64,000 nucleotides of DNA from Halalkalicoccus jeotgali B3 (GTDB lineage Archaea > Halobacteriota > Halobacteria > Halobacteriales > Halalkalicoccaceae): NCBI RefSeq assembly GCF_000196895.1, contig NC_014297.1:248001-312000 (forward strand), written 5' to 3'. Under the pieces are notes generated by a model that was given only the letters and a program-made list of their open reading frames with translations, did not search any database and was not told where the DNA came from. Both the position numbers and the translations under genes were made by a program. Below, piece by piece: positions 6,579 to 26,199 of the stretch; position 1 is the first letter of the stretch; each line of letters opens with the position of its first letter.

Positions 6579-7076
6579 GTGCCACAGCCACGCCACCGCT
6601 CCGGGGACGACAGACTGGGTTTCGAGGAGACGACCAACTACCTCACGAGCGCGCTCTCGAAGTTCGTCCCGAACTGGCTGGCCAGGCGCGCGGTGAGCGT
6701 CTCCGTCGAGACCCCGAGAGACCGGTATCGACGGGGCGAACCCGTCGAGATCGTCGTCGAGTTCCGCAATCGCCTCCCGCTGCCGATCACGGTTCCCACC
6801 GTCGAGCGGCGGCTCTGGGAGTGGCGCGTCGACGGCGTACTGGAGGCGACCGAGGAACCCCGGTACGTGGATCGCTCGCCCAACACCTTCGCGTTTCGCG
6901 GCGGCGAGAGAAAGCGGGTCGTCCAGCACTGGAACGGCCACTTCCGGCGTGCGGAGGGAATCGACGGCCTGCACGCCTCCAAACCCGCCACGCCGGGCGA
7001 ACACACCATCAGCGTCTCGCTGACGACGACCGACGGCGACGGCCCCGGGGACGCGACGACGATTACCGTCGAGTAG
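6579..7076 (+). CDS. BsuPI-like beta-sandwich protein, 165 aa
   Basis: A GTG start gives a 165-residue protein without a signal peptide or membrane segment. From about residue 45 it has an immunoglobulin-like strand pattern: VSVSVETPRDRYRRGEPVEIVVEFRNRLPLPITV, then RRLWEWRVDGV, then an ending PGEHTISVSLTTTDG. This resembles the intracellular proteinase-inhibitor (BsuPI) domain and conserved haloarchaeal proteins of unknown function. It lies between nirA and the convergent peptide transporter, about 100 bases after nirA. The role is unknown. Confidence 0.7.
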   Translation: MPQPRHRSGDDRLGFEETTNYLTSALSKFVPNWLARRAVSVSVETPRDRYRRGEPVEIVVEFRNRLPLPITVPTVERRLWEWRVDGVLEATEEPRYVDRSPNTFAFRGGERKRVVQHWNGHFRRAEGIDGLHASKPATPGEHTISVSLTTTDGDGPGDATTITVE

Positions 7077-22518: not shown

Positions 22519-23721
22519 CTATCTGAGCGCGTAGACGCTCCCGTCGGTGCTGCCGACGTACAGCGCCCCGTCGACCACCGCCGGCGAGGAGAACGTCACC
22601 GGGCCGATCGACAGGCTCCACTGGTTGGTCCCCTCGGCGGCGTCGAGCGCGTAGACGCTGCCCTCGCGGTTGGCGACGTAGACCCGCTCGCCCGCGACCG
22701 TCGGCGAGGACCAGACCTCCCCGCCGGTCTGGAATCGCCACAGCTGTTCGCCCGATTCGGCATCGAACGCGTAGACGTTGCCGTCGCGGTTGGCGGCGTA
22801 GACGGTTCCGCCGACGACCGCCGGCCCCGAACCGGTCCAATCACCCGTTTCGACTCGCCATCGCTGTTCGCCCGAGGCGGCGTCCAGCGCGTAGAACCCG
22901 CCACCCCTGTCGCCGACGAAGACGGTCCCCTCGGAGACGGCGGACGGTCCCTCGAACTCCCCCGCCCCCTCGACGGTCCATAGCTCCTCGCCGGTCGCGG
23001 CGTCGAGCGCGTAGAAGACGCCGTCGAAACTCCCGACGAAGACCGACCCACCGTCTACTGCGGGACTCGCGACGACCTCCGCGCCGGTCCCGGCCCGCCA
23101 CTCGTCGCCGCCGAGCGCGTAGACGTTGCCGTCGTCACAGCCGATGTATAGCGTGCCGTCGACGATCGCCGGCGACGAGCCCACGTCGTCGTCCGTCTCG
23201 AAGCGCTCGGCCTCCGTGCCGTCCTCAAGTGCGAGTGCGTGAACCCCGTCCTCGAACCCGCCGACGTAGGCGAACTCGTCCTCGATCCCGACCGACGAGA
23301 AGACGTTCCCGCCCGCGTCGAACGTCCAGACCTCCTCGCCGGAGTCCGTTCCGAGTGCGTACAGCGTGTCGTCGTAGCTGCCGACGTAGACCACGCCCTC
23401 GAAGACGGTCGGCGAGGCGTAGATCGCTCCGCCAGTCTCGACCGTCCAGGCGACCGCGGGATCGTCGGGACCGCTCGCGTCGGACAGCGCGCCCGTGTTC
23501 GCGACGTCGGCGCGGTAGGTCGGCCACCCCGTCGGGGACGAAGCGTTTCCGTCGTCGTCCCCGCCCCCGTCGAGCGTGTCCTCGCCACTCGACGACCCGT
23601 TCGATCCGTTCGACCCGTTCGGGTCCGACCCGCCCGTATCGGTACAGCCGGCGATCCCGTAGAGCGCGCCGGCCCCGAGCGCCGAGAGCACTCGCCGCCG
23701 CCCCGGGTTCGTCCCGTCCAT
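22519..23721 (-). CDS. PQQ-like beta-propeller lipoprotein
   Basis: A 400-residue exported protein. It starts MDGTNPGRRRVLSALGAG and has a lipobox ending in C26, so it is a Tat lipoprotein. A Gly/Ser/Asn linker leads to about eight repeats of the type YALDAATGEELW...ASPTVFEGVVYVGS, which fold as a beta-propeller. Similar proteins occur as outer-face scaffolds or PQQ-dehydrogenase-like proteins; no dehydrogenase residues are evident here, so the function is open. It is located between sufU and the highly charged exported protein gene. Confidence 0.85.
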   Translation of the reverse strand: MDGTNPGRRRVLSALGAGALYGIAGCTDTGGSDPNGSNGSNGSSSGEDTLDGGGDDDGNASSPTGWPTYRADVANTGALSDASGPDDPAVAWTVETGGAIYASPTVFEGVVYVGSYDDTLYALGTDSGEEVWTFDAGGNVFSSVGIEDEFAYVGGFEDGVHALALEDGTEAERFETDDDVGSSPAIVDGTLYIGCDDGNVYALGGDEWRAGTGAEVVASPAVDGGSVFVGSFDGVFYALDAATGEELWTVEGAGEFEGPSAVSEGTVFVGDRGGGFYALDAASGEQRWRVETGDWTGSGPAVVGGTVYAANRDGNVYAFDAESGEQLWRFQTGGEVWSSPTVAGERVYVANREGSVYALDAAEGTNQWSLSIGPVTFSSPAVVDGALYVGSTDGSVYALR

Positions 23722-24144
23722 GGGCACCCCATCACGGCGGGCGGACCTGAGCGTTTCGATCAGCCGGCAGAACGACAAAAAGTGTACACTACTTCCGTCG
23801 ACCGGGACGTATCCTTACTTCACAGCGGCGATGATCGGTGCACGATGGCGATACATCATGGACAACACCTCGTGCTTCCGCCCGTTCTTTCGGCCTCGTC
23901 GGGTACGCTGACCCACTTTCTCGATTTCGACCGACACTATCGATCTTCCATCTCCCGTCCCCATTGGGGCCTCACTCCCCGTAGCCACTATCTCCGTCGC
24001 TCGCCGAATCAGTCATCGGTTCGTCAATACTGTCTTTCATCCATAATCAATATATACATATTTTGAAATATATATCTTTAGTCATATCAGATAGATTTAT
24101 CTCTCATCCGACAGTCGTTCCAATCGCTCCGGGGGGAGCAACAG
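23722..24144. other. AT-rich intergenic region before the charged exported protein
   Basis: About 420 bases without a convincing gene. GC-rich at first, it becomes very AT-rich at 24040-24100, with runs such as CAATATATACATATTTTG and AAATATATATC that form an imperfect dyad. TTTAT at about 24095 is 48 bases before the next ATG. This looks like a strong promoter/operator region. Confidence 0.5.
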
Positions 24145-24846
24145 ATGACAGACGAGAGTGACTCACACGACGGCCAGCGAACGCGACGAACCGTGCTGAA
24201 AGCAACCGGACTGGCGGCGACCGGTCTGGTCGGGTTCTCCGGCGTCGGTGCGGCCCACGGGGGCCACGACGACGATGACAAGGAGCGGAAAGACCCGTAC
24301 TTCCGGGGTTTCCGACACGGCTATCACGGCGAGAAAAAGCGAAAACGCCACGGTAAAGGCTACCACGACGGATACGACTTCGGGACGAAGAAACGCCGCC
24401 GACACAAACACTACGACCTGAACCTCGAAGCGTACTACGACGGGTTCCGAGCCGGGTACTTCGACAAGAAAAAACACACCAAGAACACGGGCTACCGGGA
24501 GGGATACGAACACGGCAAGAGGAAAGCCAAGAAGCACCGGAAGAACGGTGGGAAAAAGCGCCGTGGCGGTCGGAACGATCACGACGGGAAACGGAAGGGT
24601 CGTGACAAGGACGACCATGATCACGATCACGACCGGAAGCGAAAGGATCGGGACAAGGACGATCACCACCACGACCACGACGATGACGACCGCAAACGCC
24701 GTCGCAGGGACGACGACGATGACGACGACGGAAAGCGAAAACGTCGCCGTCGAAAGGACCGCGACCGTGACCACGATCACGACGATGACGACGACAGGAA
24801 GCGAAAACGCCGCGACCGGGAACGGGACGGGAAAAAGGACGACTAA
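24145..24846 (+). CDS. Exported His/Lys/Arg/Asp-rich low-complexity protein
   Basis: A 233-residue protein with a Tat signal (R14-R15, hydrophobic core, cleavage near GAAHGG). The mature N-terminal half repeats glycine-aromatic units: YFRGFRHGYHGE, GYHDGYDFG, YYDGFRAGYFD, GYREGYEHGKR. The second half is almost entirely Lys, Arg, Asp, His and Gly in alternating blocks (for example DRKRKDRDKDDHHHDHDDDD). Such a lysine/arginine load is very unusual for an extracellular haloarchaeal protein. Metal or polyanion binding is conceivable. No family is recognised. Confidence 0.75.
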   Translation: MTDESDSHDGQRTRRTVLKATGLAATGLVGFSGVGAAHGGHDDDDKERKDPYFRGFRHGYHGEKKRKRHGKGYHDGYDFGTKKRRRHKHYDLNLEAYYDGFRAGYFDKKKHTKNTGYREGYEHGKRKAKKHRKNGGKKRRGGRNDHDGKRKGRDKDDHDHDHDRKRKDRDKDDHHHDHDDDDRKRRRRDDDDDDDGKRKRRRRKDRDRDHDHDDDDDRKRKRRDRERDGKKDD

Positions 24847-24951: not shown

Positions 24952-26199
24952 TCAGGCGAACAACTGCCGCGCGTCGTCGACCGCCTCGACCAGTCGATCG
25001 ATCTCCTCGCGGGTGTTGTAGATGTAGAAGGAGGCCCGTGCGGAGGCCGCAGTACCGAGAACGTCGTGCAGCGGCTGGGTGCAGTGATCGCCCGCCCGGA
25101 TCGCCACCGCGTGATCGTTCATGATCGAGGCCAGATCGTGGGCGTGAACGCCGTTGAGGTTGAAGCCGACGAGTCCGCCGCGGTTTTCGGCCTTTTGGGG
25201 CCCGTAGATCTCGATGTCGTCGAATTCCGTGAGGCGCTCTAAGGCGTACTCCGTCACCCATTCCTCGTGGGCCTGAACCCGCTCCATGCCGATCCCCTCC
25301 AAGTACTCGACCGCGCGTTCGAGTGCGATCCCCTGGGCGATCAGGGGGGTGCCCGCCTCGTACTTCCAAGGCAGGTCGTTCCACTTCGCGCCCTCGAAGG
25401 TGACTTTCTTGATCATGTCGCCGCCATAGAGGAACGGCTCCATCTCCTCTAAGATCGCCTTCTTGCCGTAGAGACAGCCGATACCCGTGGGACCGGCCAT
25501 CTTGTGACCCGAAAAGGCGTAGAAATCCGCGTCGATCGCCTCGACGTCGACGGGGCGGTTCGGAACGGCTTGCGCGCCGTCGACGAAGATGAGCGCGTCC
25601 TGTTCGTGGGCGAGGTCGGCGAGTTCCTCGACGGGGTTGATCGTCCCGAGGGCGTTCGAGACGTGGACGACCGAGACCATCCGGGTGTCCGGGCCGATCA
25701 GATCGCGGGCGTGGTCCATGTCGAGTTCGCCCTCCTCGGTGATCCCGATGTAGCGCACCGTCGCGCCGGTCCTCTTTGCGATCTGCTGCCAGGTGACGAG
25801 CGAGGCGTGGTGTTCCATCTCCGTGAGGACGACCTCGTCGCCCTCGCCCAACTCGTTCAGCCCCCACGCGTAAGCGACGAGGTTCTCGGCTTCGGTGGTG
25901 TTTTTCGTAAATACCATCTCCTCGCGCCCGCCCGAGGCGCCGACGAAGTTCGCGAGCGTGTCGTGGGCCTCCTCGTAAGCGATCGAAGCCTCCTGGCTCA
26001 AGTGGTGGATCCCGCGGTGGACGTTCGCGTTCGTTTCCCGGTAGTAGTCGCCGATCGCGTCGATCACTTGGTTCGGCGTCTGTGTGGTGGCGGCGTTGTC
26101 GAGGTAGACCAACTGGTTGCTGTCGAACTCCCGTTCGAGGATCGGGAAGTCCTCCCGGACGCGCTCGACGTCGAGCGGCGCGGATTCCTGAATGCCCAT
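24952..26199 (-). CDS. sufS: Cysteine desulfurase SufS
   Basis: A 415-residue PLP enzyme that takes sulfur from cysteine for Fe-S cluster assembly. It starts LDVERVREDFPILEREFDSNQLVYLDNAATTQTP, typical of group II desulfurases. The PLP lysine is in FSGHKMAGPTGIGCLYGKK, and the catalytic-cysteine loop near the C-terminus appears as GDHCTQPLHD followed by SARASFYIYNTREEIDRL. It is in line with sufU but separated by the propeller gene and an opposing gene, so the Suf genes are dispersed here. Confidence 0.9.
   Translation of the reverse strand: MGIQESAPLDVERVREDFPILEREFDSNQLVYLDNAATTQTPNQVIDAIGDYYRETNANVHRGIHHLSQEASIAYEEAHDTLANFVGASGGREEMVFTKNTTEAENLVAYAWGLNELGEGDEVVLTEMEHHASLVTWQQIAKRTGATVRYIGITEEGELDMDHARDLIGPDTRMVSVVHVSNALGTINPVEELADLAHEQDALIFVDGAQAVPNRPVDVEAIDADFYAFSGHKMAGPTGIGCLYGKKAILEEMEPFLYGGDMIKKVTFEGAKWNDLPWKYEAGTPLIAQGIALERAVEYLEGIGMERVQAHEEWVTEYALERLTEFDDIEIYGPQKAENRGGLVGFNLNGVHAHDLASIMNDHAVAIRAGDHCTQPLHDVLGTAASARASFYIYNTREEIDRLVEAVDDARQLFA

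Follow-up and report, generated by a model that had tools for sequence, protein, structure and literature searches.

Haloarchaeal proteins are nearly all acidic, above all those that are secreted. The locus described here encodes a predicted exported protein with a pI of 9.8, three quarters of its residues charged, which breaks this rule and raises the question of how such a protein is kept soluble, or is assembled, in brine. It lies within a window of 64,000 nucleotides (G000:C1:248001-312000), the whole stretch of DNA that was analysed, from a host genome (G000) of 3.70 Mb in seven contigs. The first-pass annotation described a Tat-exported protein composed of glycine-aromatic repeats and an extreme Lys/Arg/Asp/His tail, and the motifs that it quoted (GFRHGYHGE, GYHDGYDFG, GFRAGYFD and GYREGYEHG) are all found in the translation. 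The features of the locus are collected in Table 1.

Table 1. Features of the repeat-protein locus, in window coordinates; residue numbers refer to the full-length protein
Feature	Position	Strand	Basis
Gene for the Gly-aromatic repeat/KRDH-tail protein	24145..24846	+	ORF and translation; ortholog, paralogue, dN/dS
Predicted twin-arginine signal peptide, residues 1-37 (TRRTVLK... GVGAA), without lipobox Cys	24145..24255	+	Sequence; conservation
Repeat unit 1, residues 50-88	24292..24408	+	Match to profile A2, 67 bits, E 6.6e-18 (both window units were among the input sequences of this profile); unit alignment
Repeat unit 2, residues 95-132	24427..24540	+	Match to profile A2, 55 bits, E 4.8e-14 (same reservation); unit alignment
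Low-complexity K/R/D/H tail, residues 139-233 (95 aa)	24559..24843	+	Composition, charge blockiness, Tandem Repeats Finder
Short inverted repeat GCTCC-GGGG-GGAGC	24126..24139	+	Immediately 5' of the start codon; overlaps bases that are rich in purines and resemble a Shine-Dalgarno sequence
Tat lipoprotein with PQQ-type beta-propeller, divergent neighbour	22519..23720	-	PF13360, E 7.5e-76
sufS cysteine desulfurase, convergent neighbour	24952..26199	-	PF00266, E 8e-146

The reading frame runs from an ATG start to a TAA stop and specifies 233 residues, and its base composition at the three codon positions (0.70/0.38/0.73) agrees with that of coding sequence in the host genome. An ortholog occupies the same site, between the PQQ lipoprotein gene and sufS, in another genome of the genus (G001:C1:372658-373234), and the host genome itself carries a paralogue of 374 residues (G000:C1:500946-502070) with about four full repeat units, the same kind of Tat signal and a K/D/H/R tail. 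Comparison of the window gene with the G001 ortholog gave a dN/dS of 0.32 over the 124 codons of the signal and repeats (0.20 for the signal and first half-unit, 0.37 for the remaining repeats), with 0.15 for the neighbouring sufS; these ratios are rough because synonymous divergence is high (about one per site). Together, the comparisons indicate that the gene is real and coding, with its frame under purifying selection in ortholog and paralogue, and a spurious ORF is ruled out by the ortholog, the paralogue and the dN/dS. The loss of frame in close relatives that the first-pass annotation had named as the mark of such an artefact is limited to a single-base frameshift in one ortholog and one truncated copy.

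The frameshift arises from one extra A in an A7 run of the G001 ortholog (L012 ~6840-6850, G001:C1:372840), so that the gene reads as two frames; past this run, the repeats and tail are open as far as the natural end. The extra base may stem from a sequencing error or a recent loss, or the site may be prone to slippage. The truncated copy is found at the second-copy locus of a further genome (G002), where the neighbours retain ~91% DNA identity and some 980 bases are gone, including the promoter, the start, the signal and all of the repeats, with the tail still open. At the window locus, sufS and the PQQ gene adjoin in G002, G004 and G006, separated by a spacer of ~400 bases with no repeat gene. 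The family is thus patchy and dispensable within the genus. A small two-helix membrane ORF was observed between sufS and the PQQ gene in these same three genomes and also in G001 (L012 5921-6103).

The N-terminal signal (TRRTVLKATGLAATGLVGFSGVGAA) fits the pattern of Tat substrates, with a twin-arginine motif, a hydrophobic stretch and an A-x-A-like cleavage site, and constitutes the best-conserved part of the alignment of the window protein, the G001 ortholog and the paralogue. Export by this route, as first annotated, is therefore predicted by motif and conservation and is probable. The generic TAT models of Pfam and NCBIfam gave only sub-cut-off matches. Upstream of the start codon, the arrangement GCTC(C)...(G)GAGC of the inverted repeat is kept in the aligned leaders of the window gene and the G001 ortholog (L012 ~6637-6655) and, in part, of the paralogue (L015 ~6925-6945), and sites combining such an inverted repeat with an ATG number only four in the whole genome. 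It is a candidate regulatory element that could mask or present the ribosome site.

The repeat unit spans about 39 residues (consensus xxYFRGFxHGYHxEKKxKxxxxGYHDGYxxGKKK) and is present in two copies in the window protein, which align to each other with a score of 90 against a maximum of 72 in 2000 shuffles. Residues 50-138 contain six G[YF]xxG motifs, with 0.34 expected and none of 2000 shuffles reaching six, and the paralogue and ortholog behave similarly. Across all eight known units, Tyr or Phe directly follows the first glycine in 20 of 21 G-x3-G intervals, and both the Gly-Gly and the aromatic-aromatic distances show maxima at 4 and 8. The G-x3-G spacing to which the first-pass annotation drew attention is therefore real, in that it exceeds shuffled expectation, and is conserved across all relatives. 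An i, i+4, i+8 spacing of this kind, if helical, would place a stripe of glycines beside a stripe of aromatics. AlphaFold2 models built with the few available relatives had mean pLDDT values of 48 and 47, a very low confidence that leaves no usable model and supports neither helices nor disorder.

No significant match to the repeat unit was found in Pfam, NCBIfam, PHROGs or the sequences of the PDB. As searched, the unit is undescribed in these collections, and the protein founds a small family of its own. The window protein has the make-up by which this genus-specific family (profile A2, built on the repeat unit alone) is defined, namely a Tat signal, at least two units of ~39 residues and then a KRDH-rich tail.

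Two known groups of glycine-repeat proteins invite comparison. Yae1/Lto1 works on the insertion of Fe-S into Rli1, a cytosolic process. The deca-GX3 motif of Yae1-Lto1 comprises ten GX3 elements in a single block of 40 residues, in a protein with a cytosolic role (PMC4523923). The suggested kinship with this family did not hold: Yae1_N (PF09811) scored 7.7 bits for the whole protein and 9.8 bits for the repeat part against a cut-off of 27.5, and runs hold two to four spaced glycines rather than ten, the longest being G-x3-G-x3-G in the window protein and G-x3-G-x3-G-x3-G in the paralogue. The likeness is confined to glycine at every fourth residue, a predicted helix-packing pattern, and the export signal argues against a cytosolic role of that sort. 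In the glycine repeats of FliH, Tyr or Phe occupies more than 45% of the GxxxG x1 positions and helix contacts of aromatic on glycine have been proposed (PMC2674601). The x1 bias of the present family recalls this as a physical pattern without kinship; membership of FliH/YscL was rejected (NCBIfam FliH, E 4.7, 6.7 bits against a cut-off of 180), and the window protein differs in having no FliH domain, far fewer consecutive repeats and a predicted export signal, and is no secretion ATPase regulator.

The tail bears out the description of it as extreme, with 93% of its residues being K, R, D, E or H (40 K+R, 38 D+E and 10 H) and a net charge of +2. The first-pass annotation called the mature protein a balanced polyampholyte, which stands for the tail; charge balance does not extend to the complete mature protein (72 K+R versus 53 D+E, net +19, pI 9.83), owing to a strongly cationic repeat part that has +19 by itself. 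That the composition is exceptional for a haloarchaeal protein is confirmed, the full-length pI of 9.81 being the highest in the window, where 48 genes are predicted and most have a pI of 4-5. The paralogue has a mature net charge of -18, a pI of 6.1 and a neutral repeat part; the constant features of the family are therefore the Gly-aromatic unit and a dense mix of both charge signs with histidine, rather than a fixed net charge. Charges in the tail are blockier than in shuffled sequences, only one or two of 2000 shuffles reaching the observed value. Part of the tail DNA (24575-24682) is a 48-nt tandem repeat according to Tandem Repeats Finder, and tandem duplication with this period may explain some of the blockiness. 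The tail grows and shrinks by tandem duplication and, unlike the repeats, is not kept residue by residue between relatives.

Among 391 genomes of the class, the repeat-unit profile matched only the host genome and G001, and in another draw of 393 genomes of the phylum it matched the host genome alone, G001 being absent among the matches listed. Peptide-pattern scans, which find close relatives only and from which the nearest genomes were possibly left out, gave no match in 84,980 species' genomes or in viral contigs. On present evidence, the family appears to be limited to one genus. The full-family profile (A1) matched in 55 of the 391 genomes, but those inspected share only the Tat signal and were rejected as relatives.

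The first-pass annotation had proposed a search of other haloarchaea for the same composition and signal. In the genomes covered, no Gly-aromatic units were found outside the genus, and one unrelated Tat protein (L026, G339:C2:331263) carries a very long DHDRDKD-type tail. This protein shares the Tat signal and the long low-complexity DHKR tail, and differs in its separate folded-looking domain, in front of a mostly acidic DHD-type tail, and in the lack of Gly-aromatic units. Charged tails of this D/H/K kind may be more general among the proteins that haloarchaea export. A survey of the literature found no secreted histidine-rich or polyampholyte haloarchaeal proteins.

Each repeat gene is paired head-to-head with one that encodes a Tat lipoprotein propeller (window 22519-24846; L015 5017-8071), and the two propellers match different families, PQQ at the window copy and BNR/sortilin-like at the paralogue. 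The neighbours of the paralogue are of a surface type, comprising a sugar-nucleotide epimerase, lipoproteins with BNR-like repeats and other exported proteins. Beside the paralogue in two species, a Tat protein of ~217 residues without a Pfam match was noted (L015 8884-9537, L014 3849-4505), in which a DEDHHHKKGHGKGHGK linker accompanies a conserved domain that contains Cys. The sufS gene is kept in all ten of the family genomes.

We tentatively favour, with rather less than even confidence, the reading that one haloarchaeal genus exports through Tat a surface or matrix protein that is largely disordered and associates with itself, a function that we infer from sequence features. Outside the cell, the Tyr/Phe-Gly units would be the stickers, whether they stay disordered or form short helices packed through GxxxG, and near-saturated salt would promote their association. 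Through their surplus of positive charge, the repeats would attach to acidic partners such as S-layer glycans, exopolysaccharide or extracellular DNA, and the tail, with its blocks of Asp/His/Lys/Arg, would form a hydrated spacer bridging anions and divalent metals. The cells would thereby gain a cohesive or adhesive layer, which would be of use in certain niches and expendable elsewhere. The binding of metals, DNA or polyanions and the role in condensates that the first-pass annotation raised are likewise conceivable.

Consistent with such a surface or matrix role are the Tat motif, the coding status of the gene, the conservation of the repeats as against the unconserved tail sequence, the aromatic bias at x1 and the blocky charge. 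The setting of the paralogue among surface-type genes, and a genus-restricted, patchy spread with losses resembling that of fast-evolving surface proteins, also point this way. The paralogue counts against it, since its net charge and neutral repeat part mean that cationic repeats are no family constant. Electrostatic bridging is, moreover, strongly screened in molar salt. The very low confidence of the AlphaFold models speaks against it too, and the losses in relatives would equally fit a gene with little function. By analogy, without kinship, the FliH pattern and the histidine-rich proteins of squid beak lend some plausibility: the Gly/His/Tyr (GHGxY) repeats of the latter phase-separate through His/Tyr contacts, and the range over which they do so widens as salt rises (PMC6884462). 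These beak proteins are likewise secreted and rich in Gly/His/Tyr repeats, offering a plausible analogy for salt-favoured self-association; they are not homologous, and the window unit differs in being heavily K/R-charged and accompanied by a charged tail.

The main rival, which we consider rather unlikely, is a secreted metal-binding or metal-buffering protein, in which Asp/His runs (DDHDHDHD, HHHDHDDDD) and the Tyr/His-rich repeats would capture extracellular Zn, Ni, Cu or Fe in order to store, scavenge or detoxify them. Histidine is plentiful, with 21 residues alongside the 53 Asp/Glu in the 196 mature residues of the window protein, 30 in the G001 ortholog and 41 in the paralogue; similar D/H runs occur in another genome (G033) within a protein resembling what we take to be the nickel-insertion protein LarC; and the flanking suf genes handle iron-sulfur. 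However, cysteine is absent from the window protein and present just twice in the paralogue, no metal transporter or metal regulator is seen beside either copy, and the Suf genes are cytoplasmic, the paralogue not being near suf. The D/H runs are also common: DHDHDHD codon runs were found in 126 of 292 haloarchaeal genomes (the reversed pattern gave almost no matches), most of the readable carriers have no export signal, and in many species the run sits at the C-terminus of a conserved ATPase-like protein. D/H alternation was accordingly rejected as a family marker; it is not diagnostic by itself because it is widespread in haloarchaea and sits on unrelated proteins, cytoplasmic ones included.

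Next after metal binding, and unlikely in our estimation, comes a weakly functional, decaying genus-specific gene, expressed as a mostly neutral exported repeat protein whose tail would expand by replication slippage. The absence of the gene between sufS and the PQQ gene in three genomes, the A7-run frameshift in G001, the 5' deletion of the other copy in G002 and the tandem-repeat DNA in the tail would all suit such a history. It is opposed by the dN/dS, above all in the signal and first half-unit, and by the long intact frames of two copies in the host genome, the paralogue running through 374 codons uninterrupted by a stop. The G001 frameshift, being a single homopolymer indel, may be a sequencing error.

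We regard as improbable a helical scaffold, in which every unit would fold into a short GxxxG-helix hairpin that either dimerises or engages an exported partner such as the head-to-head propeller lipoprotein, in the manner of the FliH or Yae1-Lto1 glycine-repeat adaptors but extracellularly. Glycines at i, i+4 and i+8 with a FliH-type aromatic bias at x1 (PMC2674601), the divergent propeller gene beside both copies and a helical prediction for the better stretch of the AlphaFold model (residues 90-132 of the modelled part, pLDDT ~54-64) suggest such a scaffold. At most three to four spaced glycines occur in a row, however, there is no significant family match, propeller genes exist without a repeat gene and belong to two different families, and the models are not confident. 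A link to Fe-S assembly through the adjoining sufS was rejected as weak, with the paralogue located elsewhere and relatives keeping the sufS-PQQ pair without the gene. A viral, phage or plasmid origin was rejected too, no relative being found in virus, phage or plasmid records; the phage and plasmid searches returned nothing of note.

Returning to the surface or matrix protein, a more specific form of this reading, which we hold to be quite unlikely, is that in near-saturated brine the genus-specific exported protein might build a salt-stable coacervate or an adhesive coat by means of its Gly-aromatic GxxxG units and blocky charged tail. If this were true, it would represent a natural polyampholyte adhesive working under screened electrostatics, with a tail length tuned by tandem duplication. 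The two copies in one genome, together with the natural losses, provide a simple genetic test. Should self-assembly in 4 M salt prove true, the protein would offer a natural model for adhesives and condensates at extreme ionic strength.
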